Of a stretch of DNA of 29,900 nucleotides, positions 1,836 to 28,883 are shown one piece after another; the stretch's first letter is position 1, and each line of letters begins with the position of its first letter. The stretch is from Candidatus Helarchaeota archaeon (GTDB taxonomy: Archaea > Asgardarchaeota > Lokiarchaeia > Helarchaeales > HEL-GB-A): assembly GCA_016840125.1 (NCBI GenBank), contig JAEOSY010000617.1:1-29900 (forward strand). Direction: 5' to 3'. The notes beneath the pieces were generated by a model. That model was not told where the DNA came from. It made no database searches and saw only the letters and a list, made by a program, of their open reading frames with translations. Made by a program: the position numbers and the translations under genes.

Positions 1836-1890
1836 ATTACTTCAAAGAGATCGAAATGAGTTTAAATTCTATTAAGCTTCTTCATTGGAT

Positions 1891-2616
1891 ATGAGTTTTA
1901 TTGAATTAGAATCTCAGCACATCCCTCGGATTACAATTGGAACAAGCCCGTTTATGGGTGCCGGGCAGTTTGGGAGAATGGGCGGAATTTGGCGTGCTGA
2001 ATTTTTCCAAAATGCTGAAAAAATGGCAGAATTAATGGTGCATAGTTATAATCAGGGTGCACAAGGTGTGGAAGTTATTCCTGCAGGAGCGATGTTAAAA
2101 GCCGCATTAATCGCTCGAGATAAATGTTCTGATTTTACAATTCTTGGGAGCACTCTTTGGGAGCGCATTGAAAATTATTTTCATATCGATGATCTAGTTG
2201 AAGTGGATGCCAAAATTATTTTTCTCCATGGATCAATATCCGATAATCGCGAATATAACTTAATTAGGGCGCTTCTTAAGAAGATACGCTTAGCGGGAAA
2301 GATTCCCGGGATCGCAACGCATTATCCATTGAGAACAATCCCCTTTATCCAGGAGAAAAAACTCGATTGTCCTGCTATTTTGCTCCCGTTTAATTTGAAT
2401 GGGGAATTCATGGGGGACCAGAAAGCATTGGAAGAGTTGGTGGATTCCTTAGATTTATTTTTCGTGGCCATGAAAAGTTTAGCCGCCGGGAAAATTCCTC
2501 CGAATAAAGCGTTTCCATATCTTGGCGAACATAATATCTCTGCGGTAACGGTCGGAATGGTAACCAAAGAAGAAATTGAAGAAACCGTTGCTGAAGCTAC
2601 AAAAGTGTTTACCTAA
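1891..2616 (+). CDS. TIM-barrel protein, divergent aldo/keto-reductase-like
   Basis: 241 residues. The N-terminal RITIGTSPFMGAGQFG resembles the first strand and loop of aldo/keto reductases. The C-terminal HNISAVTVGMVTKEEIEETV matches their usual final strand and helix. Between lie alternating strands and helices such as GAQGVEVIPAG, KIIFLHGSISD and LDLFFVAMKSLAAGKIPP, as in a beta/alpha barrel. I cannot find the classical Asp-Tyr-Lys-His catalytic set: only an HGS at about residue 112 recalls the His region, so redox activity is doubtful. The ATG at 1891 is preferred to the TTG two codons upstream. No strong Shine-Dalgarno is visible. The gene converges with the HAD gene at 2617 with no gap. 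Confidence 0.6.
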   Translation: MSFIELESQHIPRITIGTSPFMGAGQFGRMGGIWRAEFFQNAEKMAELMVHSYNQGAQGVEVIPAGAMLKAALIARDKCSDFTILGSTLWERIENYFHIDDLVEVDAKIIFLHGSISDNREYNLIRALLKKIRLAGKIPGIATHYPLRTIPFIQEKKLDCPAILLPFNLNGEFMGDQKALEELVDSLDLFFVAMKSLAAGKIPPNKAFPYLGEHNISAVTVGMVTKEEIEETVAEATKVFT

Positions 2617-3946: not shown

Positions 3947-5431
3947 CTAATTATACTTTAACTGCTTTTTCATTTGATTTTGGAATGTTTTTGCGTTGGT
4001 TGGAGGGGGAATTTCAATGTCTTCATCGGGTTTAAATTGGTCTCTCCAAACTCTAGCTGTTTTGATACCATTAATTACAAATTTTCGTGCCATCTTGAAG
4101 AACCACCACAGACGTGGATTTCGGATGAATTGAATGCCCCGTCGAAGAAAATAGAACCGATCAATTCTTTTGGTCAATTTAAAATAGAAGTCGTTGTAGG
4201 CTTCTTGAACAAGTTCGTAAATTTCTTGGGTTGTTAAATCTGGCGTGCGCATAATAGGTCGTACGAGATTCCAATGTGTATAATCCTCGTCAGTAATCCA
4301 TCCGTTTTTTAAAGCTTGGTCATGTAATTGAGTAGTAGGATAGGGGGTTAGAGGTGTGAATTGCATTACGTCTATGTTGAGATCTTCTGCAAACTTAATG
4401 GTTGCCCTTACATCCTCTTTAGTTTCTCCTAGATTTCCAATAATTATACTGCCAAAAATCGTAATTCCATAATCATGAAGAATTTTCACAGCTTGTTTTA
4501 TTTGTTCAATAGTAATTCTTTTTCCAATCACATCGAGGGATTTTTGATGTATACTTTCTATCCCTATAAACATCATTCTCCAACCAGCGCTTGCCATTTT
4601 CCCAACAATACGCGGATGCTTTACAACATCATCTACTCGACCTTGACATGATTTCCACTTTTTATGATAACCGTGTTCTTTAATTAAATGACATAATTTT
4701 TCAATGCGGTGCATATTGAGCGTTGATTCACTATCATTAAAGATAAACCAATTTTTTGTTTTATCCATATGGTTAAATTCTTCAATGATCCGTTCCGGTG
4801 ATTTATACCGCCAGCCCCGCCCCCAATGGGACGAGATACAACAAAAATGGCATTGATGCGGACATCCCCTAGCCGATTCTAGGGTATCAATTGTTGCCCA
4901 AAAGTAGTGATACTCATAATTTTTGACCAGATCTCGCCTTGGAAAGGGTGAATCATTAAGGTTAATGAGTGGTCGATTTTCTGTCTGAATTAAATTTGAA
5001 CCGTTTTTAAAGCTGAGACCCTGTATTGTTTTAAAATTTCCTCCATTTTCGAGATTAGATACAACCTCAGGAAAGGTAATTTCTCCTTCTCCACGGACTA
5101 CGATATCCACTTCAGGATAGAGTGCTGTTTCAGGAACTAGACTTCCATGAAACCCTCCTAAAATGGTTTTAACATCATGTTCTTTCGCAATGCGAAATAC
5201 TTTCAGAGCTCCATTGATCATCGATGTAGATGCAGATACTCCAACTAGATCAAATTTCTGAATCTTGTGCTCTATAAATTCGGGACTATATTCGAAATTT
5301 CGAAGATCTAAAATTTCCACTTTATGCTCTGGAACGGTCGCGGCTAAAATCATCAACCCCAATGGTGGGGCTTTTAAAAAATGATCCATACCGACTTTCA
5401 GACCTGTTGGATTGATTAACAAGATTTTCAT
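3947..5431 (-). CDS. B12-binding radical SAM protein, copy A
   Basis: 494 residues. Residues 1-130 form a cobalamin-binding Rossmann domain (MKILLINP, APPLGLM, DLVGVSAST, ILGGFHGSLVPE, VVRGEGE) without the DxHxxG histidine, so cobalamin would bind without a protein His ligand. Residues 180-400 form the radical SAM domain, with the 4Fe-4S motif CPHQCHFC at C190, C194 and C197. The last 100 residues form a helical tail with a Trp/Phe-rich stretch. This architecture is shared by class B radical SAM methylases and cyclases, including HpnP-type hopanoid methylases and the archaeal GDGT ring synthases GrsA/GrsB. The start at 5431 is set by homology with copy B, because upstream codons give no domain; AAGGA lies about 8 bases before it. 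It lies 43 bases after copy B. Confidence 0.85.
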   Translation of the reverse strand: MKILLINPTGLKVGMDHFLKAPPLGLMILAATVPEHKVEILDLRNFEYSPEFIEHKIQKFDLVGVSASTSMINGALKVFRIAKEHDVKTILGGFHGSLVPETALYPEVDIVVRGEGEITFPEVVSNLENGGNFKTIQGLSFKNGSNLIQTENRPLINLNDSPFPRRDLVKNYEYHYFWATIDTLESARGCPHQCHFCCISSHWGRGWRYKSPERIIEEFNHMDKTKNWFIFNDSESTLNMHRIEKLCHLIKEHGYHKKWKSCQGRVDDVVKHPRIVGKMASAGWRMMFIGIESIHQKSLDVIGKRITIEQIKQAVKILHDYGITIFGSIIIGNLGETKEDVRATIKFAEDLNIDVMQFTPLTPYPTTQLHDQALKNGWITDEDYTHWNLVRPIMRTPDLTTQEIYELVQEAYNDFYFKLTKRIDRFYFLRRGIQFIRNPRLWWFFKMARKFVINGIKTARVWRDQFKPDEDIEIPPPTNAKTFQNQMKKQLKYN

Positions 5432-5474
5432 ATTCTTTAATTCCTTATATTTAATAGGTTGGATGATGAGTGTC

Positions 5475-6887
5475 CTATTTTTTATGTTTTTGTAAGTCTT
5501 CGACCATTTTGAAAACAGCGGGGATACCAACGAGTAAAAAATCCGGTACCATCCGCCAGAACCACAGGAACTGATCCTTAGCCATGCGGTGTCCGCCACG
5601 CATTAAGAAACTAGTCCGAAATCCATCTAAATAAAAAGAACGATATGCTTGTATTACTAAATCTAAAATTTCCTCAACGGTAAGATCAGGCGTCGCCATA
5701 ATGGGACTAACCAGATTCCATTTATTGAAATCATTAATTTTAACCCATCCCTTCTCAAGAGCTTCCTCATACAATTTCGTTTTAGGGTAGGGTGTTAAAG
5801 GGGTGAATTGCATAATATCAATATCCAAATCTCTCGCAAATTGAATCGTTTTCATAACGTCCTCTTTGGTTTCCCCGACATTCCCAATAATAATCGACCC
5901 AAAAATTGTGATCCCTCGGTCATGTAACATTTTGACAGCTTCTTTAATTTGCTCGATGGTAATCTTTTTGCCGATTTTATCGAGACTTTTCTGGAAGATG
6001 GATTCGATACCGATAAAAAGCATTTTGAAGCCTGCCTTCTGCATCTTATCCACAATAGCTGGATTCTTTACAACTGAATCAACTCTCCCTTGCGCGCTAT
6101 ACCATCGCTTCTCCATTCCATGCTCAAGTATCAGATCACAAATTTTGTCAACTCGCTTCATATTCAATGTAAAGCTACTATCTTGAAAGATATGCCACAT
6201 CCTGCGTGTATTAAGTTGCTGTAGTTCTTGGATGACTCGTTCTGGCGATTTTGTTCGAAATCGGCGTTGGTGAAATTGAATAACACAACAAAAGTGACAA
6301 TCATGGGCGCAACCCCGGGAAGATTCCATTACATCCACAGATCCCCCGAAGTATGAGTAATAATTACCTCGAATTAAGTCTCGCCGTGGAAAGGGAAGTG
6401 TGTCGAGATCATCGATCAGGGGACGAGCGGGATTGTGATGAGCTGTTCCATTTTTACTATAACTCACACCCAAAACATCGTCTACTTTATGACCGTTATC
6501 CAAGGCTTTAATCAATGCAGGAAATGTCAGTTCCCCTTCACCTCGAACTGTATAGTCAATTTCAGGTCTTTCTACCAGTTCGGGGACTAAAGTTGGGTGA
6601 TAACCACCTACTATGGTTGGTACGCCCTCTTCCTTTGCCATTTGACAAAGTTTGACCGTCGCTGAATAGGATGGTGTTAAACAGGATATACAAACAACGT
6701 CCGCACGGGACATTTTTTTCCGAATGCTCCGATTTAGCAACTTCCGATATTTTAAGTCCATAATTTCGACATGGTGGTCCGGTACTGTCGCTGCAATGGA
6801 CATTAGACCCAGTGGGGGCGCTTTGATAAACCGATCCAGTCCTAATACTGGCGATGCTAAGGTCGGATTAATAAACAAAATTTTCAA
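5475..6887 (-). CDS. B12-binding radical SAM protein, copy B
   Basis: 470 residues with the same layout as copy A: cobalamin domain at 1-130 (MKILFINP, VGGYHPTLVPE), radical SAM domain with CAHDCHFC at C193, C197 and C200, then a helical C-terminus. Long blocks are shared with copy A, including the segment from GKRITIEQIKQAVK (GKKITIEQIKEAVK here) through IIIGN-GETKEDV to QFTPLTPYP. They are therefore tandem duplicates. Copy B is first in the transcript, with a TATA box at 6932-6940 and TGAGGA about 10 bases before the ATG. Substrate is unknown. The nearby Tes-like pair makes a membrane lipid a reasonable hypothesis, by analogy with GrsA/GrsB. Confidence 0.85.
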   Translation of the reverse strand: MKILFINPTLASPVLGLDRFIKAPPLGLMSIAATVPDHHVEIMDLKYRKLLNRSIRKKMSRADVVCISCLTPSYSATVKLCQMAKEEGVPTIVGGYHPTLVPELVERPEIDYTVRGEGELTFPALIKALDNGHKVDDVLGVSYSKNGTAHHNPARPLIDDLDTLPFPRRDLIRGNYYSYFGGSVDVMESSRGCAHDCHFCCVIQFHQRRFRTKSPERVIQELQQLNTRRMWHIFQDSSFTLNMKRVDKICDLILEHGMEKRWYSAQGRVDSVVKNPAIVDKMQKAGFKMLFIGIESIFQKSLDKIGKKITIEQIKEAVKMLHDRGITIFGSIIIGNVGETKEDVMKTIQFARDLDIDIMQFTPLTPYPKTKLYEEALEKGWVKINDFNKWNLVSPIMATPDLTVEEILDLVIQAYRSFYLDGFRTSFLMRGGHRMAKDQFLWFWRMVPDFLLVGIPAVFKMVEDLQKHKK

Positions 6888-6931
6888 AATTTGTTCCTCA
6901 ACAATATTTTAAAAAAATCAGAGTCATATTC

Positions 6932-6940
6932 CTATTTAAA
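6932..6940 (-). promoter_or_regulatory. TATA box for the B12 radical SAM pair
   Basis: On the minus strand this reads TTTAAATAG followed by G, centred about 49 bases before the ATG at 6887. The 6888-7136 interval holds this promoter and the terminator of the 7137 gene; I see no gene in it. Confidence 0.4.
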
Positions 6941-7110
6941 CTCTTTTCTCCACTCCTTCCATTTTCTAAAATATTTTATTATCCTAAAATAGAAGATATC
7001 TAATTTGATTATCGCCTCTGCTCTACATCAGTTACAAATTGATTAGGGAAAAATTACCTGAGATTTTTTAAATCCTGTTATATAACCGCTATAATAGATT
7101 ATGAATCGTG

Positions 7111-7138
7111 AATTTCTAAATAAAAAAAGAGAGAAATT
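7111..7138 (-). terminator. Short hairpin and T-tract terminator after 7137-8861
   Basis: Inverted arms AATTTCT (7111-7117) and AGAAATT (7132-7138) overlap the stop codon. On the minus strand the loop contains a seven-T tract. This is plausible as a terminator for the protease gene. Confidence 0.4.
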
Positions 7139-8861
7139 AGAAAAGTTCGTTCTTTCGTTTTGATTTAATGAATAAAACTAGCGTCAATGCTACTAGTGCT
7201 ACTGGGAATAGCCCAAAGGGTATTGGACTTGGCTGCGGAATTACGATAAACGCTTCGGTGTTGATATAAGCTGCATCGCCGTTACCGACTTCATCCATCA
7301 CTAGTAAAATAGCATTGTCTTTTGTGGCATTTGGAACTGTAATCGTGGTGCTGAAATTACCGCTTGGGTCGGCAGTTACCGAACCCAGATATAGCCCATC
7401 AATGTAGAGGGAGACATTTCCATTAGGCATATAAAGCATTCCAGTCACTTGCATCGTCTTAGTACCAGTCACGTTTTCACCGGATATTGAGAGGGTTCGC
7501 ACCCCTTGGCTGTTTAAATTTACTTCGACAGGTAGTGTTTGATCCAGGAAGCTTTCCGGCCCAGCCATGTCCCACCACTCTGAAACGATCCACATGTTGA
7601 ATATCCCTTCTAGATCACTGACTAACCAGGGCTCCGTGGTTTCAACGTCAAAATAGACATCGAAGAAGGAATCCACCCAACCTGAACCAGTATCATTATC
7701 ATAGCTAATAGTTTCATTCCTTGGTTTAATATTCTGGACGAAATCCCCGAAATTCAGCGTGAAGATCCAGTTAAGTGTTATGTTATTCCAAACGAACACA
7801 TATACCTCCCACCCGCCAGACCACCAGGTCGAGAATTCGACTCGGAGATCTGCATTGAGGAAGAAGGGATTCCCTAAATCTCCCGAACCCGGGATGTAGT
7901 CAAAGCATAAATCATAGGAGCAATTATCTATCGGCATCTTGGCGATCTGCAACCAGAACTTAAGCATCATGGTTGTATAATTTTTAATGAGACCTCCGCC
8001 GATTATATCGACGTAGGGTGCGAGCGCTGAATGCATGGTAGTATTCTTTACATCTGACTTTGGACCTGATGCAACTCCAGTTTTTGTCGTATTTTTTGGT
8101 TTGGTTTGAATGATTTGGGGTCTGTGCTTTACAACTGCTCCTGGGATCTCCTTGCTCGCATTAAATATTGCACCACAATTAATTGCATCTCCTGTTCGAT
8201 CGCTGGCTCTGCCCCAGAGGTTATACCCTTGATCAGCGCTAGTGACTCGCCCGTCTCCATTGACATCCCAGCCAGTCCCATTCCCGGGGGCGGCTCCATT
8301 GATGTCTTCATCCGCTGGCTGCGCAGGCCCGTGGCTCTGTCCGAGGGCATGCTGCATTTCGTGTGCCCAAGTATCCCCATTAGTGGAATTTGTAACTATT
8401 GGGCCATGGGCGCCACCTACCGTTGAGTAACCATTTATGTTAGGCCCTAGACCACTAGAGACCGTGATACTAACGCCACTTCCTCCGGCATTCGTAGAAG
8501 CGCTTCCCCTGACAGAACTCCGATTATCTGCTCCTGATACGGCCCCATCACCATTGCCATCCGGATCCGGGATCGTGTTGATGGTTCCATCCCAGACGAA
8601 GATAACCACTTCGCAATTGTAAATTTCATTCATTCTTTTGATATTTGCTTCGATAGTTTCTTTTGAAATGGTCGTTCCTTGTACAACATTGATTGAAATA
8701 GGTACCACGACATAATCTGACGTTCCTAGCTTATGAATTTGATTATTTTGGGTGATTTCCATACCGGGCACAACCGGTACGCCTGCCACCACTGGAACTA
8801 AGATTATTGCAAACAGTAAAAGCTGTAATAGAGGGTTATGTTTCCTAATTTTAAATTTCAT
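7137..8861 (-). CDS. Secreted, membrane-anchored metzincin-type metalloprotease
   Basis: 574 residues. A signal peptide covers residues 1-30 (basic start, then LLQLLLFAIILVPVVAG). The zinc site is AHEMQHALGQSHG at 166-178, giving HExxHxxGxxH with H167, E168, H171 and H177, the metzincin signature. Two acidic Asp/Asn/Gly loops flank it: DPDGNGDG near 99 and DVNGDG near 199, the second resembling a dockerin or EF-hand Ca site. Beta-rich segments with many N-x-S/T sequons follow, then an Ig-like stretch. The C-terminal helix (about 548-568) ends in KSKRK, so the enzyme is held on the outer face. I chose the start at 8861 because AAGGAG lies 9 bases upstream and the signal peptide begins there. 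The gene lies between the two radical SAM pairs; any functional link is unclear. Confidence 0.75.
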   Translation of the reverse strand: MKFKIRKHNPLLQLLLFAIILVPVVAGVPVVPGMEITQNNQIHKLGTSDYVVVPISINVVQGTTISKETIEANIKRMNEIYNCEVVIFVWDGTINTIPDPDGNGDGAVSGADNRSSVRGSASTNAGGSGVSITVSSGLGPNINGYSTVGGAHGPIVTNSTNGDTWAHEMQHALGQSHGPAQPADEDINGAAPGNGTGWDVNGDGRVTSADQGYNLWGRASDRTGDAINCGAIFNASKEIPGAVVKHRPQIIQTKPKNTTKTGVASGPKSDVKNTTMHSALAPYVDIIGGGLIKNYTTMMLKFWLQIAKMPIDNCSYDLCFDYIPGSGDLGNPFFLNADLRVEFSTWWSGGWEVYVFVWNNITLNWIFTLNFGDFVQNIKPRNETISYDNDTGSGWVDSFFDVYFDVETTEPWLVSDLEGIFNMWIVSEWWDMAGPESFLDQTLPVEVNLNSQGVRTLSISGENVTGTKTMQVTGMLYMPNGNVSLYIDGLYLGSVTADPSGNFSTTITVPNATKDNAILLVMDEVGNGDAAYINTEAFIVIPQPSPIPFGLFPVALVALTLVLFIKSKRKNELF

Positions 8862-8900
8862 TACATAAAACTCCTTATTATATAATAATTGTGCCACGAT

Positions 8901-8910
8901 TAATATATAT
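8901..8910 (-). promoter_or_regulatory. TATA box for 7137-8861
   Basis: An ATATATATTA stretch on the minus strand, centred about 45 bases before the ATG at 8861. Confidence 0.35.
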
Positions 8911-8959
8911 CAATATCGAACAACATGAAATGAGAGAATATCCATATATGGGGCGAATA

Positions 8960-8992
8960 TTCGCCGACCCATGAAAAAAGAAGGAAAAAAGG
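8960..8992 (-). terminator. T-rich terminator after Tes-like copy 1
   Basis: On the minus strand two runs of six T, separated by CCTTC, follow the stop codon of 8998-10695 within 15 bases. Confidence 0.45.
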
Positions 8993-8997
8993 AGATT

Positions 8998-10695
8998 TTA
9001 ATGGGGTGTTATAACTTTAACAGACATCTCTTGGTCCTGGTATTGGGCATTCTTCTTCTCTATACGTTCCCTATGGAGTGTATTCATCGTACAGAATGGT
9101 ACGCGAAAAACTTTCTTTAATTCCCGGTCATAATACCCATAATGGACTAAACATCGGGATACTCGTTCGACATCCATGTTATAGGCATCCTGAAAGTGCA
9201 TGCAACTAAGTAATAACCCTCGATCACGGAGGAAATTCGCGGCACTCTCCTCTCCTGGATTAAAAACGATAGCTCCAAGCTTTTTAAGGATATGAAGAAC
9301 AACATTTACATCTTTCAGCCCATTTGGGTTCAAATAGCGAAGAGCGCTAGCAAAATATCCCGCCTCTACACTCTTTTTAAATATGGAATGTACTGCTCCA
9401 TCTAGCCAGGAACCCATCCTTTTCCCTATTGAGGTAAGACCTAGGATACTTGAGAAGAGATTCTGCTTTCTATCGAGCTTATTTTCTTTAATAAAATCCC
9501 AAATCCGATTGGCCAAGTTTAAATATTTATGCACGTCAATGTATTCCTCGATTGCATGAAGTTTATTATTATTGGGATTTTTTGGGTCAACCTCAGCAAC
9601 ACAAAACGTTGCGAATCCGCAATCTTCATGGGCTGCAAGTTCAAATGCTTCAATGTCTTCAAACCAACTCACTAATTTCACAAAATTACTGAGCGTTGGA
9701 ACGGGATAGAGTTTCCCTTTAAAAGTTCCATTATTATAATCATTATTTATGGCATATTGTAAATCAGAGGCATTATAGCGCATTCGTAATACCTCTTCTT
9801 TCGTGATTCTACCGCATAGTGATACTGGCTGATAAACAACTCCATCGACAACATCCTCATTTTTAACAGCAAAATCTAAAATTGGAGCCACCTGATCATC
9901 ATTGATTCCACGTGCGATGGTAGGGACCAACACCAAATCGTTAAATCCGAGAGTTCTCATATTCTCGACGATCTGCATTTTTTTATCTAGGAGATCGACA
10001 CCTCTAGTTTTTTGATACACTTCTCGATTTGTCACGCTGTCCCACTGCATATAACAAGCGTTCATCCCTGCATCTATAATTTCCTGAAGATAATCTATGT
10101 CAAGAAATTTTAAGCCATTCGTCGTTATCATCCGATGATTGAATCCTAAGTCCTTTGCCATCTCAATGATTTCTGGTAACTCTTGTCGTAAAGTAGGCTC
10201 ACCACCAGATATTTGACACGACCCTGGTGGTATTGGCTTCGTCTCGCGGAAATGCTCCATTATCATCCGGATTTCCTCGAACGTGGGCTCCACAACATAT
10301 CCTGTCACATTGGCATTAGCAAAACAAATCGGACATTTAAGATTACAACGATTGGTTATATCTATAAGACAAATACATGTTGCGGATTTATGATTTTCAC
10401 AAATCCCGCAATCATATGGACAGCCCTTTAATCCATGCTTACCTCCATGGATTGAATATGGTCCCTTATCAAAAGCTACTTCCGGATCCTCGGAAAATTC
10501 ACGCGAATCTTGATGATAGAGCTGTCTCCAGTTATAATAGTCCGAATTTCCCGCCAATATATCCTGAAAATCCCCATGATCCGGACATTTCTTCTTCATA
10601 TATACTTTATTATTATCCTCATAAATTACAGCGTCGATCTGTTGCTTGCATTCAGGGTGTGGGCAAATACTTACGGTTTTCCGTATAATTTTCAA
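8998..10695 (-). CDS. tes: Tetraether lipid synthase-like radical SAM protein, copy 1
   Basis: 565 residues. N-terminal Cys pairs (C11, C16, C37 with H40) resemble the rubredoxin-like metal site of Tes. KGCPYDCGIC at 91-99 is an extra cluster motif. NRCNLKCPICF gives the radical SAM CxxxCxxC at C117, C121 and C124, followed by an SGGEPT SAM-binding motif. The C-terminal CMHFQDAYNMD, then C-x-VHYGYYD and VPFCTMN, form the terminal cluster region. This order matches Tes of Methanocaldococcus jannaschii (MJ0619), which joins phytanyl chains of two archaeol lipids. Start is TTG 10695 with GGAGGA about 7 bases upstream, inside a short leader ORF. The N-terminal site reads CPHPEC instead of CPEC as in copy 2. 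Family is confident; which C-C bond is made is inference. Confidence 0.85.
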   Translation of the reverse strand: MKIIRKTVSICPHPECKQQIDAVIYEDNNKVYMKKKCPDHGDFQDILAGNSDYYNWRQLYHQDSREFSEDPEVAFDKGPYSIHGGKHGLKGCPYDCGICENHKSATCICLIDITNRCNLKCPICFANANVTGYVVEPTFEEIRMIMEHFRETKPIPPGSCQISGGEPTLRQELPEIIEMAKDLGFNHRMITTNGLKFLDIDYLQEIIDAGMNACYMQWDSVTNREVYQKTRGVDLLDKKMQIVENMRTLGFNDLVLVPTIARGINDDQVAPILDFAVKNEDVVDGVVYQPVSLCGRITKEEVLRMRYNASDLQYAINNDYNNGTFKGKLYPVPTLSNFVKLVSWFEDIEAFELAAHEDCGFATFCVAEVDPKNPNNNKLHAIEEYIDVHKYLNLANRIWDFIKENKLDRKQNLFSSILGLTSIGKRMGSWLDGAVHSIFKKSVEAGYFASALRYLNPNGLKDVNVVLHILKKLGAIVFNPGEESAANFLRDRGLLLSCMHFQDAYNMDVERVSRCLVHYGYYDRELKKVFRVPFCTMNTLHRERIEKKNAQYQDQEMSVKVITPH

Positions 10696-10697
10696 GT

Positions 10698-10721
10698 TCA
10701 GGTCCTCCGAATTACGTTCAT
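10698..10721 (-). CDS. Seven-residue leader ORF coupled to Tes-like copy 1
   Basis: An ATG with GGTGAT (10731-10726) four bases upstream opens a seven-codon reading, MNVIRRT, then TGA. The stop ends two bases before the TTG start of the Tes-like gene. The Shine-Dalgarno of that TTG (GGAGGA) lies within this ORF, so ribosomes finishing the leader could restart at the TTG. The peptide resembles the first residues of the downstream protein (MKIIRKT), suggesting a local duplication. Whether it is translated is not known. Confidence 0.4.
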   Translation of the reverse strand: MNVIRRT

Positions 10722-10795
10722 AAAAATCACCACAAAAATTATTCCTTAATATATCCCGTGCATCATTTTATTAATCTAGCAAAACCCTCTGCTCC

Positions 10796-10805
10796 CTATT
10801 TAATT
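10796..10805 (-). promoter_or_regulatory. Possible TATA box for Tes-like copy 1
   Basis: On the minus strand AATTAAATAG followed by GG resembles the TTTAAATAGG box of the B12 radical SAM pair. A second AT box, GGATATATTAAGG at 10744-10755, is closer but would place transcription start at about the leader ATG. Confidence 0.3.
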
Positions 10806-10899
10806 GTTTGTATGTGCGCTAAAGCCTGAATTTACTTTATCTTCTGCATATATCAAGGAGTTCAAAATTTTAAATAAATAAAAAATGGATTGTTTCTCC

Positions 10900-12600
10900 T
10901 TACTGCGGTGTAATAATCTCGACCGGAACCTTTTGTTTTTGGTATTTAGCGTTTTTTCGCTCTATCCGTTCGCGATGGATTGTATTCATGGTGCAGAAGG
11001 GGATTCGGAAAACTTTTTTTGATTCCCGATCAAAATATCCATAATGAACCAGACAACGCGAGACTCGTTCTTGATCCATGTTGTAAGCATCTTGAAAATG
11101 CATGCAGGACACTAATAAGGCTTGATCACGGAGAAAATTCGCAGCTTGGTCCCACTCAGGTTGGGTAATGAGGTTTGATAACTTACGAATTGTATTGGTA
11201 AAAGAACCCACTTTGGTGGGGTTTTTAATCAGTTCAGAAAATTTGATATATCGTGCTGTATTTGCCAATAGACCATATTTTAACCCTTTCCGGAGTAAAA
11301 AGTGTCCAATTCCATCTAACACGGACCCTACTTTCTTGCCAGCAGAGGTGACTCCAAATAGTTTTGAGAAGAGTTCGGGCTTTCCCTCTAAATTATTCTT
11401 CTTTAGAAAGTCCCAGACGATATCCGCAGCCTTTACGAATTTAGTTACATCCACGTATTCATCGATTGAGTGTAATTTGTTCTTCATCCGGTCCTTAGGA
11501 TCAACTTCAACGACTCCGATGGTGGCAAAGCCGCAATCTTCATGGCTCGTCATTTCAAAGCCCTCGACCCCGTCAAACCAGGTCACTAACTTCACAAAAT
11601 GGCTTAACGTAGGGATAGGATAGAACAATCCCTTAAAAGTATTATTTGTGTGCTTGTCAATGTCTGCAAAGAGATCCGAGGCATTATAGCGTAATTGTTT
11701 AATTTCCTCCTTCGTTATTCTCCCACAGAGTGAAATAGGTTGATAAATGATACATGAGATGACATCTTGATTTTGTACCGCAAAATCTAAAATCGGACCC
11801 ACTTGGTTATCATTTACGCCGCGCGCGATTGTAGGTACCAGGGCCAAATCACGATACCCCAGCTCTCTCATATTTTCCACAATTTTCATTTTCTTTGCTA
11901 ATAAATCTGCCCCACGAGTTTGTTTATATACATTGGGATCCGTAACACTATCAAATTGCATATACGTCGCGTTCATGCCCGCATCAATGATCTCCTTCAA
12001 GTAATCAATGTCTGTGAATTTCAACCCGTTTGTGGTAACCATTCTATGCTTGAAACCCAAATTTTTTGACATCCGAATAATTTCGGGAAGATCACCCCGA
12101 ATTGTAGGCTCACCGCCTGAGAGTTGGATTGCAGTGGGGGGCATGGGTTTCGTATCCCTGAAGTGCCCCATAATTTGTTCCAACTCCTCCATAGTTGGCT
12201 CAACTACATAGCCCGTAACATTCGCGTTAGCAAAACAAATTGGACATTTCAAATTACACCGATTCGTAACATCAATCAAACAGATACAAGTAGCGGACTT
12301 GTGATTTTCACAAATACCACAATCATATGGACAGCCTTTTAATCCAAACTCGCCCCCTTGTGATGAATGGGGACCCGCGTTAAATTTAGTTTCCGGATCT
12401 TCAACTATCTCCTTTGAATCATGGTGATATTCCCGACGCCATAGGTAAAATTTGGTATCTTTTGCTAAAATATCCTCAAAATCCCCATGGTTCGGACACT
12501 TCTTCCTCATGAGTATAGTATCTTGATCTTCAATAATTTGAGCCTCAATCTGCTGCTTGCATTCAGGACAGATTGAGATCGTCTCACGAATTACCTTCAA
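10900..12600 (-). CDS. tes: Tetraether lipid synthase-like radical SAM protein, copy 2
   Basis: 566 residues from TTG 12600. N-terminal metal site SICPECKQQ and KKCPNHGDF (CxxC plus C/H), GLKGCPYDCGICENH cluster motif, radical SAM motif NRCNLKCPICFANAN, SGGEPT SAM motif, and a C-terminal CMHFQDAYNMD and IPFCTMN cluster region: the complete Tes layout. Strongly similar to copy 1 over its whole length, with a longer linker near residues 440-480. I prefer TTG 12600 to ATG 12606, because GAAGGA abuts that ATG but lies six bases before the TTG, and the TTG aligns with the start of copy 1. The 10696-10899 gap suggests copy 1 is transcribed separately. Likely acts on archaeal lipids in the membrane. 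Confidence 0.85.
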   Translation of the reverse strand: MKVIRETISICPECKQQIEAQIIEDQDTILMRKKCPNHGDFEDILAKDTKFYLWRREYHHDSKEIVEDPETKFNAGPHSSQGGEFGLKGCPYDCGICENHKSATCICLIDVTNRCNLKCPICFANANVTGYVVEPTMEELEQIMGHFRDTKPMPPTAIQLSGGEPTIRGDLPEIIRMSKNLGFKHRMVTTNGLKFTDIDYLKEIIDAGMNATYMQFDSVTDPNVYKQTRGADLLAKKMKIVENMRELGYRDLALVPTIARGVNDNQVGPILDFAVQNQDVISCIIYQPISLCGRITKEEIKQLRYNASDLFADIDKHTNNTFKGLFYPIPTLSHFVKLVTWFDGVEGFEMTSHEDCGFATIGVVEVDPKDRMKNKLHSIDEYVDVTKFVKAADIVWDFLKKNNLEGKPELFSKLFGVTSAGKKVGSVLDGIGHFLLRKGLKYGLLANTARYIKFSELIKNPTKVGSFTNTIRKLSNLITQPEWDQAANFLRDQALLVSCMHFQDAYNMDQERVSRCLVHYGYFDRESKKVFRIPFCTMNTIHRERIERKNAKYQKQKVPVEIITPQ

Positions 12601-12651
12601 AAGCATTCCTTCTTTTATTAGTCCTGTAAGTCTTATTGTAATACCCCATGC

Positions 12652-13043: not shown

Positions 13044-14300
13044 TTACAGCGAAGGAAGCGTGATTGTCCCGTGGGGCATAAACGTGACCTTTGCATCACG
13101 GCCGACATGGGAATAGGCTAACTCCATGGCATCATCAACGGTCTTTGCCGGTTCTAATGCATATAAATCCCTCAGTTCTTTTGGATCCATTTTAGAAATA
13201 AGGATTATTTTTGCTTTCTGTTGAACTTTCGCAATGTAATACGCTTTATGACCTCCCATCACAAAATTCGTTTTCACTTGCTTTTCCAAATTCTCATAGG
13301 TCCTATATTTCTTCGCCCAATCAACAAAAACCGGATGCCCATGCCCCTCACGACACTCTAGCGCGCTAACAATTACGCCACCAGGTCGCACAATCATCTG
13401 AGCATTGTCAATTGCTTTATAAGCTTGATATAAATCAATATCCTTCGGGTACCCTGCTCCTACTAGCACAATATCCGCTAATCCCCTGACTTTTACGCGA
13501 TAGATGGAATCATAAAATCTGGCAGCCTCTTCATGTGCTGCAAACAGGTCCCCTGCAAAGGCACGAATGAGTTTCTTCTTTGTATTTCGCACCAAGTTTA
13601 GCATAAATCCTGCTTTTGTCCTCTTCGCAGCTTCAACCATATCTTCATGGATGGGATTCTCAATTAATTTACCTGTCACCGCCTTATCATCGATCAAATA
13701 GGCATGGTTTTGGTTAATACTCGTTCGCCCACTAATACCGGGAAGTATGCTTTTCCGCCCTCCTGAGAAGCCTGCATAGTAATGATATCCCACTTTCCCT
13801 GTCACAATAATATAGTCCGCCTTGGCTGCGATAGCATTAATTGCTACCTCTGTTTTCCGCGATGTCATCCCAAGCTTCACTAAATCTGGCGCATTGCAGT
13901 CGTGACTTACACAATTCACGCGTTCTATTACTTCTTTTCCCACTAGCTTCAGCTGTTCCTCAGGTTTTACGGATCGATGGGTACCACATGCAAAAAGTAC
14001 CGTTATATTCTCATCTGGCACTCCGCAGGCGTTTAAAGTGCCAAGTAACGGTGGGATCATTAAGTACCCTGGTGTCCCTCGCGTATGATCTTCCTGAGTA
14101 ATTACCACCGTTGAATTCGATTTGATAACTTGCGATAATTTTGGTGATCCAATTGGATTTTGCATCGCCCTCTGAATTTCTTTTGCTGGATCACTCGCTC
14201 CCGCTGGCTCATTCTTTGTTTTTACCACGTCGAATAGATTTTTCTCTGAAATCTCATAGAGGATCTCAGATTCTCCGTATTTAATGCGGATTTCAACCAT
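13044..14300 (-). CDS. LarA-family nickel-pincer racemase (lactate racemase-like)
   Basis: 418 residues from ATG 14300. LarA enzymes interconvert lactate enantiomers, or racemise/epimerise other 2-hydroxyacids, with a nickel-pincer cofactor. Visible residues match the family: DHTR at 71-74, GTHR with H108, GYHYYAGFSGGRKSILPGIS with H173 and K183, and NHA with H199. These correspond to the catalytic His pair, the cofactor-bound Lys and the Ni-ligand His of the Lactobacillus enzyme (H108, H174, K184, H200). No LarB, LarC or LarE cofactor genes are in the window. It lies 74 bases after the acyl-CoA dehydrogenase gene on the same strand. A longer start at 14327 adds nine residues with no family match. 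Substrate could be another hydroxyacid. Confidence 0.8.
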   Translation of the reverse strand: MVEIRIKYGESEILYEISEKNLFDVVKTKNEPAGASDPAKEIQRAMQNPIGSPKLSQVIKSNSTVVITQEDHTRGTPGYLMIPPLLGTLNACGVPDENITVLFACGTHRSVKPEEQLKLVGKEVIERVNCVSHDCNAPDLVKLGMTSRKTEVAINAIAAKADYIIVTGKVGYHYYAGFSGGRKSILPGISGRTSINQNHAYLIDDKAVTGKLIENPIHEDMVEAAKRTKAGFMLNLVRNTKKKLIRAFAGDLFAAHEEAARFYDSIYRVKVRGLADIVLVGAGYPKDIDLYQAYKAIDNAQMIVRPGGVIVSALECREGHGHPVFVDWAKKYRTYENLEKQVKTNFVMGGHKAYYIAKVQQKAKIILISKMDPKELRDLYALEPAKTVDDAMELAYSHVGRDAKVTFMPHGTITLPSL

Positions 14301-14374
14301 CCTTGCATCGCCATTAGAACATAACAATCTAGAATTTTAAAGCTTACTGGTCGAAACCACAAGGATTGGTAACC

Positions 14375-16105
14375 TTATGTGGATTTTTCCCTCTTCTTAA
14401 ATTCTCGGAGTAAGCTCGTAAATTTCAGAGTTTTTCCTTGGTAGTTCAGCTCTGCAAGAGCCTGATCTTGATAGGCATGAAAGAGTTCTATTGAAAGATT
14501 TTCCCAATCTCGGCATATAGTTAGGGTTTTTGCGTCGTTTTTCAAGAGGCTATCGTGGGACATGATTCCAAGAAATTTCGCAGCAAGAGGTTCGATAATG
14601 TCTGAATCAGCGGCTATTAGAACATCTCGGACAAATTCGTCTGGAGCGTACCATTCTTTTACCCGCTGGAAATCCCGATGAATTTGAGTTAGCAATACAT
14701 TTTTGGGACCCTCCCACAATTCCATTATCATTGAATCACGATGGAAGCGAGCGAGTGGAGTGAAATCTTCCATAATGCCATGACCCCCAAAAAATGAGAT
14801 AGCAAGTCTTATCAGTTCTGGACTTTCATAGCACGTTACAATTTTTTGCAACATAATCAATTCACGCAATCTGAATCGTCGCTTCCGCTCAGAGAGATCT
14901 TTAATCTGGGTTAATTCTTTCATTCCTGCAGCGAGCTGTTCCCCTAAAGCGATGAATTCCGCAAAAATCTTAAATGTGGCTGCCGCGGTTCTCTTTGCTG
15001 AAAGATTCAGATGATTAATTTGATTTATCATTAATGGAAAGAGTGCAATATTAATTCCAAAAGCAGTTCTAAATTGTGCATACAAACTAGCTTCACGAGC
15101 ACACCGTAAACCTGCCGCACCAGCGCCAATTCCGATGTTGAGCCTTGATAAAGAAAGGACAACCCCCACAATATCTGCGAGACCGTTTTCCAAGGCGCCA
15201 ACTTGGTAGCCAATCGCCCCATTATACGTCACTTCGGCAGTTGGAAGCTCCGCGGTCCCTAGCTTCTGTTTAAGTCGATCAATCGTATAAGAATTCCTAA
15301 TCCCCCGCTCTTTATTACCTGGGAGCCATGAAGGAACCACAAAAACAGCTATTCGCGTTGACGAGGGAGTTCCTTTAGGTTTTGCTGAAACAAGGGCATA
15401 ATCACATGTCATGGCTGAACAGAAGAATTTCTTTCCATAAAGACGCCAACAATTCGAAATTCCATCAGCTCCCTCTGCTTCTTCGAATACAGCTTCAACG
15501 AGACTCTCTGGGACGTCGCTACCCCCTTGGATCTCAGTAATAAATTGAGCCCCTCTTCCATACGTACCATTATTTCCATTTCGGACGTGTTTAAGTATAT
15601 TCTGCGCTTCAGGGTCGAGTATATTTTTTCCCGTTTCATATTTCTCTAAGAGTGCTACCATTCCATGAGTGCAGACTATGGGACACATAACACCCATTTC
15701 TCCTAACTCAAAGAGCAGAAATAATTTGCAAAAGCGACTCCAGGATGTATTCCTACTTGGATCAAATAAGCCTAAACCGAAAATTTCTCTTTCTAACGTT
15801 TCTGTCTCGGCACACCTCTCTAACCTATCAATTCTATGATTGTGAGCGTCATAATGCTGTAAGATTGTACATTTAATCCGATTCTCGAGTCTTGTTGCTT
15901 CATTGGCAAGTGGACTCCATTTAAATGACACGGTCTTAGAGAGCTCTTTGAGCTCCTTATCAATCTTCTCGAATTCATCTTTGGTATAGTGTTTCACTAA
16001 CGTCTGAAAAAATCCATCATCCTTATAGAAATCAAAATGGTCCCGGACGAACAGATAATCATCAAACGAGTATAAATTATTTCTATTGCCTTCTTGAGCA
16101 CACAT
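14375..16105 (-). CDS. Acyl-CoA dehydrogenase family protein, AidB-like
   Basis: 576 residues, longer than the usual 380 of classical acyl-CoA dehydrogenases and close to the AidB-type group. An N-terminal helical region covers about 1-150. The FAD/beta domain includes QFITEIQGGSDVPES and KKFFCSAMTCDYALVSA. KLGTAELPTAEV leads into the C-terminal helical domain with R-x-AFG. Near the end, FFGGHGIMEDFTPLARFHRD and MELWEGPKNV match the AidB consensus (GG-GY-EE--LAR, then WEG-NV). It would oxidise an acyl-CoA, or act as an AidB-like flavoprotein. The catalytic Glu cannot be placed with certainty. AGAAGGA lies six bases before the ATG. It is probably cotranscribed with the LarA-like gene. Confidence 0.8.
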   Translation of the reverse strand: MCAQEGNRNNLYSFDDYLFVRDHFDFYKDDGFFQTLVKHYTKDEFEKIDKELKELSKTVSFKWSPLANEATRLENRIKCTILQHYDAHNHRIDRLERCAETETLEREIFGLGLFDPSRNTSWSRFCKLFLLFELGEMGVMCPIVCTHGMVALLEKYETGKNILDPEAQNILKHVRNGNNGTYGRGAQFITEIQGGSDVPESLVEAVFEEAEGADGISNCWRLYGKKFFCSAMTCDYALVSAKPKGTPSSTRIAVFVVPSWLPGNKERGIRNSYTIDRLKQKLGTAELPTAEVTYNGAIGYQVGALENGLADIVGVVLSLSRLNIGIGAGAAGLRCAREASLYAQFRTAFGINIALFPLMINQINHLNLSAKRTAAATFKIFAEFIALGEQLAAGMKELTQIKDLSERKRRFRLRELIMLQKIVTCYESPELIRLAISFFGGHGIMEDFTPLARFHRDSMIMELWEGPKNVLLTQIHRDFQRVKEWYAPDEFVRDVLIAADSDIIEPLAAKFLGIMSHDSLLKNDAKTLTICRDWENLSIELFHAYQDQALAELNYQGKTLKFTSLLREFKKREKST

Positions 16106-20366: not shown

Positions 20367-21554
20367 ATGGATGAAATTAAAGAAGAACTTGCGAAGTATC
20401 AATCGGAATTTAATCATTGCATGCATTGTCATCTTTGCTATGCAGCAAATTGGCATAAAATCGATGATTGGCGTATTTCATGCCCCCAAGCTGCTAAGTT
20501 TGGCTTTGAATCGTTTTATGCATCTGGCAAAATCGAACTTGCACGTGCATTTCTCGAAGGAAAGATTAAAGAAAGCACTCCTCGCTTGTTAGAAGTTCTC
20601 TATACTTGTACGGGGTGCGGTGCGTGTAGAGAACATTGTCATGAACTCTCTGGATTCAAGGCTGATCATGTTGAATTATTTGAAACTCTGAAAGCACTCG
20701 TCGTTGCCAAAGGTTGGGGCCCCCTACCCAAGCACCTTGAATTTGCAGAGAGCATCACGAAAAACCACAATCCATATCATGAAGATCATGATAAACGGTT
20801 TGCGTGGTTCCCAAAGGATCTTCCAGCTGATAACTCAGTTGTGTATTTTGTGGGCTGTACATCCTCCTACCGCCAGCAAAAGATTGCCGAGGCGACCGTC
20901 AATGTATTGAAAGCATCTGATACCCCCTTTTCGGTGCTTGGCTCCGAAGAGCGGTGTTGTGGGTCGCCCCTAATTCGTACAGGTCAACTAGAGATAGTCA
21001 AAGACCTTGCGTCTCATAATATTGAAGCAATTAAAAATTTAGGTGCGAAGACAGTTATATTTTCTTGCGCTGGCTGTTATAAAACTTTTAAAGAGGACTA
21101 CCCCAAACTTGGATTTTCCCTTCCATTCAAAATTCGTCATACCACTCAGTACTTTTTGGATCTTTTACGAAATAAAAAACTAAAAATCAAACCCCTTCCT
21201 CTTGACATTACTTATCATGATCCCTGTCATTTAGGAAGACATGCTCGAATTTACAAACAACCCCGGAAGGTACTTAAAAAATTACAAGTGAGGCTTCATG
21301 AGATGCCTCGGAACATGGAAGAGGCGTTCTGCTGTGGTGCGGGAAGTGGTGTCAGGTCTGCCTATCCAGAATATTCCCATTGGGTTTGCAAAGAGCGGTT
21401 AGATGAAGCTATTGAAGTAGATGCTTCGGTCTTGGCTTCTGCCTGTCCATTCTGTAAAAATAATTTTGAAGAAACCATAAAGGAGTTTCCTGAGCTAAAA
21501 CTGCGTATTGTTGATATTAGTGAACTCATTAATGAGAGTTTGGAGGCTGAATAG
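20367..21554 (+). CDS. Fe-S oxidoreductase subunit, HdrD/GlcF-like
   Basis: 395 residues. N-terminal ferredoxin-like cluster motifs are CMHCHLC (followed by a later Cys-Pro) and CTGCGACREHCH. Two cysteine-rich CCG domains follow: CCGSPLIRTG with CAGC, and CHLGRH with CCGAGSGV and CPFCKNNFEE. This is the arrangement of HdrD, GlcF and LutA-type proteins, which take electrons from a flavoprotein partner to quinone, thiol or other carriers. The FAD subunit gene begins two bases after its stop. The first motif is slightly unusual, with CP following after about 18 residues. It most likely forms the electron-transfer half of a lactate or glycolate dehydrogenase. The start follows a weak GGATGG site. 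Confidence 0.85.
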   Translation: MDEIKEELAKYQSEFNHCMHCHLCYAANWHKIDDWRISCPQAAKFGFESFYASGKIELARAFLEGKIKESTPRLLEVLYTCTGCGACREHCHELSGFKADHVELFETLKALVVAKGWGPLPKHLEFAESITKNHNPYHEDHDKRFAWFPKDLPADNSVVYFVGCTSSYRQQKIAEATVNVLKASDTPFSVLGSEERCCGSPLIRTGQLEIVKDLASHNIEAIKNLGAKTVIFSCAGCYKTFKEDYPKLGFSLPFKIRHTTQYFLDLLRNKKLKIKPLPLDITYHDPCHLGRHARIYKQPRKVLKKLQVRLHEMPRNMEEAFCCGAGSGVRSAYPEYSHWVCKERLDEAIEVDASVLASACPFCKNNFEETIKEFPELKLRIVDISELINESLEAE

Positions 21555-21556
21555 AA

Positions 21557-28838: not shown

Positions 28839-28883
28839 CTTCCTAAAGGTAAAATAAACTTTGTCTTTCATAAAAAGAAAAAC

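Follow-up and report, generated by a model that had tools for sequence, protein, structure and literature searches.

Old tandem tetraether synthase-like genes and a separate cobalamin radical SAM pair at a Helarchaeota locus

Genes at the locus

Helarchaeota are uncultured relatives of the ancestors of complex cells. The window analyzed here, a stretch of 29,900 nucleotides, belongs to one of them, which bears out the Asgard setting assumed in the original prediction. Four radical SAM genes occupy positions 3947-12606, all on the minus strand as predicted (Table 1). However, they do not form an unbroken block, because a fifth gene on the same strand separates the two pairs. A profile scan found Zn_ribbon_HMPTM and Radical_SAM domains in TesA and TesB. 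A cobalamin-binding domain had been proposed for two of the genes, and B12-binding and Radical_SAM domains were indeed found in 3947-5599 and 5475-6887. Aligned relatives of B12-2 begin at a position matching 5431, most likely the true start. Therefore, the two B12 genes would not overlap.

Table 1. Features of the locus, in window coordinates.
Feature	Position	Strand	Description
TesA	10900..12606	minus	568 aa; NF045702 447.4 bits; MJ0619 ligands kept
TesB	8998..10695	minus	565 aa; layout as TesA; NF045702 439.5 bits; PDB 7tol E 3.1e-105
Repeat in 5' part of TesB	10274..10656	no strand	counterpart in TesA, 12185-12567
Intervening metzincin-like gene	7137..8897	minus	between TesB and B12-1
B12-1	5475..6887	minus	470 aa; B12-binding and radical SAM; Asgard family
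B12-2	3947..5431	minus	494 aa; tandem paralog of B12-1; open frame reaches 5599

The gaps between the five genes, read from TesA to B12-2, are 204, 100, 249, and 43 bases, and for this reason a single transcript is not evident. The repeat shared by the 5' parts of TesB and TesA consists of two blocks with 76% and 70% DNA identity, and reads as the mark of a tandem duplication. The product of the intervening gene has a signal-like start, a hydrophobic C-terminal end and the motif HEMQHALGQSHG (HExxHxxGxxH), presumably of the metzincin type, and matches no Pfam family at 0.001. It is apparently secreted and is not part of the pathway proposed below. In another genome, Hel_GB_A, two tandem homologs of this product adjoin TesB.

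Scans of the window for tRNAs and Rfam families gave no matches, and a bacterial promoter and terminator scan stayed near chance level. No gene for isoprenoid-lipid synthesis and no Mcr gene was recognized among the scanned window genes, several of which match no family. The gene at 14375-16105 is acyl-CoA dehydrogenase-like. With PADLOC, TesA weakly matched viperin models and B12-2 weakly matched PDC-M51A, which was read as reflecting the shared radical SAM core.

Family membership and origin of the Tes pair

The original prediction that two of the genes are Tes-like and carry the Tes cysteine layout holds up well. The ligand residues of the Tes protein MJ0619 (taken from PMC9433317) are C9/C12/C33/H36, C73/C77/C80/H83, C98/C102/C105, and C338/C455/C470, and all have identical counterparts in TesA and TesB, as do M439 and Y459. 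Nearly all tested SAM-site residues are kept as well. The rubredoxin-type site C9-X2-C12-X20-C33-X2-H36 recurs in TesA with unchanged spacing (C13, C16, C37, H40), and in TesB as C11, C16, C37, and H40, where the first spacing is C-X4-C rather than C-X2-C. The N-terminal [4Fe-4S] site lies at C92, C96, C99, and H102 in both proteins, and the radical SAM motif CX3CX2C at C117, C121, and C124. Conservation of the histidine suggests that H83 of MJ0619 is the His ligand of the N-terminal cluster. By the same reasoning, C338, C455, and C470 would be the Cys ligands of the C-terminal [4Fe-4S] cluster, a site that corresponds to C358/C518/C538 with M502 and Y522 in TesA, and to C359/C515/C535 with M499 and Y519 in TesB.

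The pair thus shares its domain layout, metal-ligand residues, M439 and Y459 with Tes/GDGT-MAS proteins (MJ0619, Saci_0703, MA_1486, Maeo_0574). However, it differs from known Tes in a stretch around residues 400-480 that varies, in its tandem arrangement, and in an identity to Sulfolobales Tes of only 28-30%. Both copies also score slightly below the 450-bit cut-off of the NCBIfam Tes model NF045702, and therefore they are filed here as Tes-family paralogs and not as assigned Tes. That cut-off is a curator's threshold and not a biochemical feature. Points counted against Tes function were these sub-cut-off scores, the 28-29% identity to Sulfolobus Tes, and the C-X4-C spacing of TesB. In addition, expression of MA_1114, the second homolog of M. 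acetivorans, yielded macrocyclic archaeol only in traces (PMC8941075), so that a Tes paralog may be without GDGT activity.

How old is the duplication? TesA and TesB are 64% identical. Ka is 0.26 between them and 0.13 between TesB and its Hel_GB_A ortholog, with synonymous sites saturated. In a Tes tree that omits one fragment (P0021), the pair falls in a 24-row clade (100/100), sister to and separate from Lokiarchaeal Tes, where the aligned non-Helarchaeota rows show 45-48% identity. Within this clade TesA (6 rows, 100/99) and TesB (8 rows, 100/100) each form a sub-clade, and the nesting is unchanged in a 40-row tree lacking the Sulfolobales rows. By their sequences, TesA and TesB are old, constrained tandem duplicates in a Helarchaeota-type Tes clade. 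Of the 52 other loci examined, 3 of them from Helarchaeota, 51 have a Tes place at 1e-40 and none has a second one within flanks of up to 10 kb. A limited search on Helarchaeota tetraether lipids and Asgard Tes paralogs found no published description of a tandem Tes pair, and the main text of the Helarchaeota genome paper (PMC6478937) mentions neither lipid, ether, isopren nor radical SAM.

The B12 pair and the company it keeps

B12-1 and B12-2 are 52% identical. They score 71 and 62.5 bits with PF02310 and 80.2 and 82.5 bits with PF04055, respectively, and have the class B architecture of an N-terminal B12-binding domain followed by a radical SAM core (CX3CX2C at C193, C197, and C200 in B12-1). 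This domain order is shared with BchE, HpnJ, and HpnR, and with a Sulfolobus protein placed as Saci_1785, to which identity is 30%. One feature sets the pair apart from the BchE/HpnJ/HpnR class, namely an extra Cys directly after the CX3CX2C motif that is invariant in 32 aligned rows. The NCBIfam scores of B12-1 all fall below the cut-offs (BchE 222.7 of 481 bits, HpnJ 189.3 of 578, HpnR 147.1 of 650, MgmA 112.3 of 360), and assignment of the pair as any of these enzymes, or as a ladderane enzyme, was rejected.

It had also been suggested that the pair might act like the ring makers GrsA/GrsB. The N-terminal domain and radical SAM core are indeed common to both groups (hhalign probability 98.3% over 306 columns), but the identification fails. 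GrsA and GrsB are about 31-33% identical to each other, whereas their identity to the window pair is 22-23%, with 34-65% of the query covered (11 proteins; E 2e-6 to 1e-9). A profile of the B12 family gives GrsA/GrsB 21-35 bits and the protein placed as Saci_1785 291 bits. The NCBIfam model that GrsA/GrsB match best is TIGR04013; the window pair matches BchE best. In the tree, ten Asgard Grs homologs join the four Grs rows on a side of their own (100/100) with the window pair opposite, and a second tree containing the four Grs rows agrees. Moreover, Grs homologs are found away from the locus in all four Helarchaeales genomes of the comparison set, in which the order numbers only these four. 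As judged from sequence, the B12 pair therefore belongs to an Asgard family of its own, made up of radical SAM enzymes with predicted cobalamin binding, and not to GrsA/GrsB.

Are the two pairs neighbors in related genomes? Largely not, and this is an outcome that the original prediction had itself named as refuting it. The Hel_GB_A locus is collinear (LarA-TesB-metzincins, then B12-1-HAD) but spread over two contigs, and other genes fill the places of TesA and B12-2. The missing genes could lie elsewhere, as this genome is 82.4% complete (PMC6478937). In LW55_61 the Tes gene is on a separate contig, and 248 kb lie between B12-1 and B12-2. A conserved operon of four genes was accordingly rejected.

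Part of the neighborhood claim nevertheless survives. Among the best 120 rows listed, the five other contigs above 40 kb with a Tes of the TesA/TesB clade (146433, 107475, 74746, 60829, and 40682 bases) all apparently carry B12-1 too, as judged from equal contig sizes rather than from DNA, with the longest contig taken per 90% cluster. This argues for some shared use of Tes and B12-1. The 40682-base contig is labeled Candidatus Deferrimicrobium, a bacterium, but was read as mis-binned because its proteins group with those of Helarchaeota. In addition, 3 of the 52 other Tes loci contain B12 radical SAM genes, though from different subfamilies: L003 in the Helarchaeales genome G003, and the two Lokiarchaeal loci L014 and L045. 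These last two are orthologous, with a tandem B12 pair about 4-5 kb from Tes. The remaining 49 have no such gene within at most 10 kb per side, many flanks being shorter.

Helarchaeales genomes are rich in radical SAM genes (57-79 matches in each of four). In LW55_61, 17 of the 46 listed positions (79 in total) lie within 9 kb of another, whereas random placement of 46 genes gives a mean of 6.0, and no 9-kb group among these 46 exceeds four. Radical SAM groups are thus above random expectation, yet not rare in this lineage.

Possible functions and their meaning

The reading that probably accounts best for these data combines two parts. TesA and TesB, as old Helarchaeota tandem duplicates, would be tetraether synthases, and the B12 pair, as a separate non-Grs Asgard family, would owe its position beside them to a lineage-specific arrangement rather than to a conserved pathway. 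Tail coupling by TesA and TesB is likely because the MJ0619 metal ligands and nearly all tested SAM-site residues are kept. Given the observed domains, ligand residues, trees and synteny, catalysis and substrates can be proposed by analogy with MJ0619. In each enzyme a SAM radical would probably abstract hydrogen from a phytanyl tail at its terminal carbon, and the carbon radical would then be held on sulfur of the C-terminal [4Fe-4S] cluster. Joining of a second tail would yield biphytanyl lipids (GDGT, trialkyl tetraether or macrocyclic archaeol).

Why two copies? The duplication had been taken to provide for a second bond or bridge. This requirement was rejected, since MJ0619 is described as forming biphytanyl chains in macrocyclic archaeol as well as in GDGT (PMC9433317); as one Tes can make both GDGT bonds, a second copy does not have to imply another bridge. 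Instead of serving one bond each, the copies most likely diverged in their substrate preference or in how they are regulated.

The first alternative to the reading of Tes-family couplers beside a separate B12 family is that all four genes remodel lipids together, TesA and TesB making the tetraether core and B12-1 and B12-2 modifying it by C-methylation, a head-group change or a non-Grs ring. This is rather doubtful. The five contigs, the Hel_GB_A collinearity and the three Tes loci with B12 genes speak for it, as do the second and third NCBIfam models of both B12 proteins, the hopanoid enzymes HpnJ and HpnR, although below cut-off. However, the top model, BchE, is no lipid enzyme, every score is far below its cut-off, and the protein placed as Saci_1785, which is of the kind that serves as a Grs outgroup (PMC8473941), has the identical top three models. 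Perhaps the aromatic-rich C-terminus of B12-1, its most hydrophobic stretch, points to lipid, but in B12-2 that stretch is elsewhere, and an analysis of C-terminal helices did not separate lipid enzymes from others. Nor does the neighborhood help much: no isoprenoid-lipid synthesis gene was recognized among the scanned window genes, Tes and B12 genes are apart in LW55_61, the B12 pairs of L003, L014, and L045 reach only about 24-33% identity with the window pair or with their nearest rows, and radical SAM genes cluster generally.

An unlikely second alternative is that TesA and TesB have acquired a new function on another hydrophobic chain, leaving housekeeping synthesis to a further paralog. 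Repeated Tes-like matches across the host's class, counted below, speak for it. Each of the four Helarchaeales genomes has 2-4 Tes-family genes from several clades, and copies of the MJ0619-side clade in LW55_61 and G003 score 568.6 and 562.2 bits, well above the cut-off that the window copies slightly miss. However, in the LW55_61 copy Y459 is replaced by Met, D199 by Asn, and T238 by Ala, whereas TesA and TesB keep all three. An observation that also does not fit is that the sister clade is Lokiarchaeal and that Lokiarchaeon MK-D1, whose own Tes lies outside the tree, is described as probably containing biphytanes (PMC7015854). Finally, modification of a protein or small molecule by the B12 pair, e.g., an MgmA-like action on an active-site residue of alkyl-CoM reductase, is very unlikely: MgmA (PDB 9ccb; PMC11796369) ranks second by sequence among solved relatives and Helarchaeota have been proposed as hydrocarbon oxidizers (PMC6478937), but the MgmA model score is low and the window holds no recognized Mcr gene.

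What does a Tes pair of probable couplers mean for Asgard archaea? The makers of their membrane-spanning lipids bear on the change from archaeal to eukaryotic membranes, and an Asgard survey reports what share of genomes carries tes (PMC12042123). By our own count, at least two Tes-like matches are listed in 56 of 83 genomes of the host's Asgard class, and Helarchaeota have intact tandem copies. Therefore, the presence of "tes" is a coarse marker, and the Helarchaeota paralogs are a testable set. With Grs ruled out for the B12 pair, the Grs homologs elsewhere in the four Helarchaeales genomes give lipid chemists better candidates. What if, in one Helarchaeota sublineage, TesA and TesB are sub-functionalized couplers (e.g., archaeol-archaeol versus archaeol-trialkyl, or divided by tail type) and a tetraether modification outside Grs, Gms, and Cds comes from B12-1, together with B12-2 where that gene occurs? 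This scenario is improbable, but if true it would mean an undescribed Asgard membrane lipid.

The Tes-family tandem

Judged from sequence, TesA and TesB, the tandem Tes-family (tetraether synthase-like) radical SAM pair, form an intact tandem of Tes-family enzymes in Helarchaeota and are likely tetraether synthases. Their NCBIfam Tes scores (447.4 and 439.5 bits) are just under the cut-off of 450, with the next-best model, TrsS, far behind (310.5 and 293.7 bits; cut-off 490). TesB matches the solved reference Tes, MJ0619 (7tol), at E 3.1e-105. The ligand sets in that structure are C9-X2-C12-X20-C33-X2-H36, C73/C77/C80 plus a His, and the CX3CX2C core; the C-terminal cluster carries the labile M439, and M439 and Y459 are reported to be completely conserved across 1000 archaeal homologs (PMC9433317). 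A 58-row alignment with MJ0619 bears out the original prediction of a full Tes cysteine layout in both copies. TesA and TesB have the MJ0619 residue at all these ligand positions and at M439 and Y459, and also keep F106, N108, A109, G145, Y195, D199, R210, V236, T238, Q268, S271 and R275. However, T273 is Cys in both, and the first two Cys of the TesB rubredoxin site are separated by four residues, not the two of MJ0619. Ka is 0.26 between TesA and TesB and 0.13 between TesB and its Hel_GB_A ortholog, with synonymous sites saturated. Therefore, both genes are under strong constraint.

The window copies fall in a 24-row clade (100/100), the sister of which is Lokiarchaeal Tes plus one Bathyarchaeota row. 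All named rows in this clade but P0009 belong to Helarchaeota or Promethearchaeota. Among named proteins, the best relatives are likewise Candidatus Helarchaeota, with one high row (P0009) labelled Candidatus Deferrimicrobium, and the three genome contigs closest to the window are Helarchaeota. TesA (6 rows, 100/99) and TesB (8 rows, 100/100) sub-clades nest in a group of 14 (97/93) beside 10 other rows (99/96), and the identical nesting is recovered in a 40-row tree with Sulfolobales rows left out. By this nesting, the duplication is older than the species sampled. Matches at the level of the 24-row clade (998-1026 bits) come only from G001 (Hel_GB_A), G002 (LW55_61) and G003 among 83 genomes of the G001 class; the next is at 897. 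Besides the window copies, the TesA and TesB sub-clades have 11 full-length rows (P0001-P0011). Among the matches listed, and comparing the longest contig per cluster only, no two of these rows agree in contig size, so the Tes tandem of this clade is seen in the window only. Adjacent Tes pairs in opposite orientations also occur in two Asgard genomes (see table).

Does the duplication point to a second bridge, as had been proposed? It does not need to. There is a Tes-like match at 1e-80 in 78/83 genomes of the class and at least two in 56/83 (a hand count from a table in which some are fragments). Multiple Tes genes per genome are common there, and therefore a tandem copy is by itself no evidence for a second bridge. 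Among four Helarchaeales genomes, G001 and G002 have four Tes-family genes each, G003 three and G007 two. In addition, MJ0619 makes the chains found in macrocyclic archaeol as well as those of GDGT (PMC9433317). Tes paralogs can differ, since MA_1114, the second Methanosarcina homolog, yields macrocyclic archaeol in traces only (PMC8941075). G002 and G003 each have one MJ0619-side copy (568.6 and 562.2 bits), and in that of G002, Met replaces Y459 of MJ0619, Asn replaces D199 and Ala replaces T238.

In both G002 and G003, the gene immediately downstream of the Helarchaeota-type Tes encodes a member of an orphan protein family. The MJ0619-side Tes of G002 is followed, at a distance of about 2.3 kb, by a distant homolog with 26-29% identity. 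Five members were found, four of them on contigs matching in size the G002 Tes contig or those of Tes rows P0018, P0014 and P0019. The two members tested have no Pfam match, and the window holds no homolog at 1e-3.

Features of the window and of compared loci
Feature	Location	Strand	Description
TesA	10900-12606	minus	Zn_ribbon_HMPTM + Radical_SAM (Pfam)
TesB	8998-10695	minus	Zn_ribbon_HMPTM + Radical_SAM (Pfam)
Fifth gene, between the pairs	7137-8897	minus	signal-like start, HEMQHALGQSHG motif, hydrophobic C-terminal end
B12-1	5475-6887	minus	B12-binding + Radical_SAM (Pfam)
B12-2	3947-5431 (open frame back to 5599)	minus	B12-binding + Radical_SAM (Pfam)
Nickel-pincer racemase	13044-14327		475.8 bits; LarAH6 malate racemase cut-off 500
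TIR protein	16301-18211		TIR domain, then leucine-rich repeats
CCG/FAD oxidase pair	20367-22966
RING-finger protein	26531-27127		eukaryote-like feature
563-aa protein	27180-28871		last third similar to MtaA/uroporphyrinogen decarboxylase
Metzincin-like tandem, Hel_GB_A	L214:134-3844
B12 radical SAM genes, L003	2241-5219
Tes, L003	6635-8344
Tandem B12 radical SAM pair	L014:15424-18422
Tandem B12 radical SAM pair	L045:9521-12102
Orphan family	L209:9840-10505
Orphan family	L003:8373-9077
Orphan family, distant homolog	L215:10937-11656
Adjacent Tes pair	G007:C115:5040-9627		opposite orientations
Adjacent Tes pair	G379:C67:2077-6997		opposite orientations
Saci_1785-like gene	G075:C1:1491613-1493986		broken copy

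The B12 pair and GrsA/GrsB

The tandem B12-binding pair, B12-1 and B12-2, had been likened to GrsA/GrsB. The Sulfolobus acidocaldarius references were read at 1,353.8 kb (GrsA, 505 aa) and 199.7 kb (GrsB, 528 aa), in a genome recognised as this species by its Sac7-type genes and its 18 radical SAM matches, the number also given in PMC8941075. They are 32% identical (published value 31%; PMC8473941). GrsA/GrsB of two genomes score 21-35 bits against the profile of the window B12 family, with 22-23% partial identity to the pair by BLAST. In contrast, a third Sulfolobus B12 protein, at 1,551 kb, reaches 291 bits and 30% identity. By order this is Saci_1785, a kind that serves as outgroup to Grs (PMC8473941). 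Four Grs rows and ten Asgard Grs homologs form one side of the tree (100/100) and the window pair the other, nearer the Saci_1785-like protein; a second tree concurs. The NCBIfam ranking is different too, TIGR04013 being top for GrsA and GrsB, whereas both window proteins, and the Saci_1785-like protein too, have BchE on top, followed by HpnJ and HpnR. Together, these scores, identities, tree split and rankings rule out the pair as GrsA/GrsB. Common homology with Grs is still visible between profiles (98.3% over 306 columns). In a close Sulfolobus relative, the Saci_1785-like gene is broken.

The sequences place the pair as B12 radical SAM enzymes of a family other than Grs. The nearest NCBIfam models (BchE, HpnJ, HpnR) are all far under cut-off, and the nearest solved chains are 6fd2 (AprD4-type) and 9ccb, which is MgmA (PMC11796369). 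A Cys immediately follows the CX3CX2C motif in 32/32 aligned B12-family rows. The most hydrophobic 18 residues, aromatic-rich, are at the C-terminus in B12-1, not in B12-2.

Gene neighbourhood

The original prediction of four radical SAM genes on one strand stands, but it missed a fifth same-strand gene between the pairs. Gaps along the strand are 437 bases (LarA-TesA), then 204, 100, 249, 43 and 232 bases, and of these neighbours just the two B12 genes seem closely coupled. The HEMQHALGQSHG motif of the fifth protein is of the metzincin type. Such metzincin-like, secreted-looking proteins, one in the window and a tandem in Hel_GB_A, evolve faster (Ka 0.53) than the adjoining radical SAM genes. 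The racemase and CCG/FAD oxidase pair, both also found near TesB in Hel_GB_A, are likely a 2-hydroxyacid module. The TIR protein has an immune-receptor-like layout, here in an Asgard archaeon, with a weak bSEFIR match in PADLOC.

Could the Tes pair make a tetraether core that the B12 pair then modifies, without being GrsA/GrsB? That they act in one lipid pathway is unlikely. Hel_GB_A contig C79 (LarA, a C25-type peptidase on the opposite strand, TesB and two metzincin homologs up to the contig end) and contig C20 (B12-1 first, two secreted-looking genes, a HAD gene and a homolog of window 1885-2616) are collinear with the window. However, TesA and B12-2 are lost there, and other genes occupy both places. 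The genes are also dispersed in G002: Tes lies on C2, and C3 carries B12-1 (at 1209 kb) and B12-2 (at 1457 kb), the latter adjoining a third paralog. G003 has Tes on one contig and B12-2 on another. The expectation that the four would be neighbours in related genomes therefore largely fails. Nor did family scans recognise isoprenoid-lipid synthesis genes nearby, where several genes are without a family match.

Among the matches listed, Tes and B12-1 have a common contig, read from identical contig size, in five cases (146433, 107475, 74746, 60829 and 40682 bases). This is 5/11 of the other TesA/TesB-clade rows and 5/5 of those on contigs >40 kb. Two of the five (146433, 107475) also have a listed B12-2 row, and a 27714-base contig has B12-1 and B12-2 with no Tes row among the matches listed.

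A second Tes place occurs in 0/52 fetched Tes loci, and a B12 radical SAM place (1e-15, window pair as query) in three. In L003 (Helarchaeota, G003) two B12 genes, 25-32% identical to their nearest rows, adjoin Tes on the opposite strand. The orthologous Lokiarchaeal L014 and L045 have two B12 genes in tandem, at about 4-5 kb from Tes and again on the opposite strand; these share 30-33% identity with the window pair and do not resemble Grs. There are thus three settings in which Tes is found near a B12 pair, with a different B12 subfamily in each. The four Helarchaeales genomes have 71, 79, 60 and 57 radical SAM matches. Among the G002 matches listed (46 of 79 positions), 17 have a neighbour no more than 9 kb away, where random placement of 46 gives 6.0 on average, and the largest group in a 9-kb stretch is four. 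Groups like that of the window are above random expectation, yet not rare in this lineage. Since 49/52 Tes loci are without a B12 radical SAM gene and radical SAM genes cluster generally, the co-location is not distinguishable from chance, which also counts against a common lipid pathway.

Candidate ring synthases and host lipids

The literature searched, including the Helarchaeota genome paper, yielded no Helarchaeota lipid data. The cultured Lokiarchaeon MK-D1 probably contains biphytanes with 0-2 rings (PMC7015854; PMC11316595), and tes is reported in most Asgard lineages (PMC12042123). Grs homologs occur in 4/4 Helarchaeales genomes and 9/79 others of the class, so other candidates exist for ring formation, if it takes place at all. 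One group of Asgard Grs homologs (L217-L220, L222-L224; 7 rows, 100/100) has members in all four Helarchaeales genomes compared, and its proteins are candidate Asgard ring synthases.
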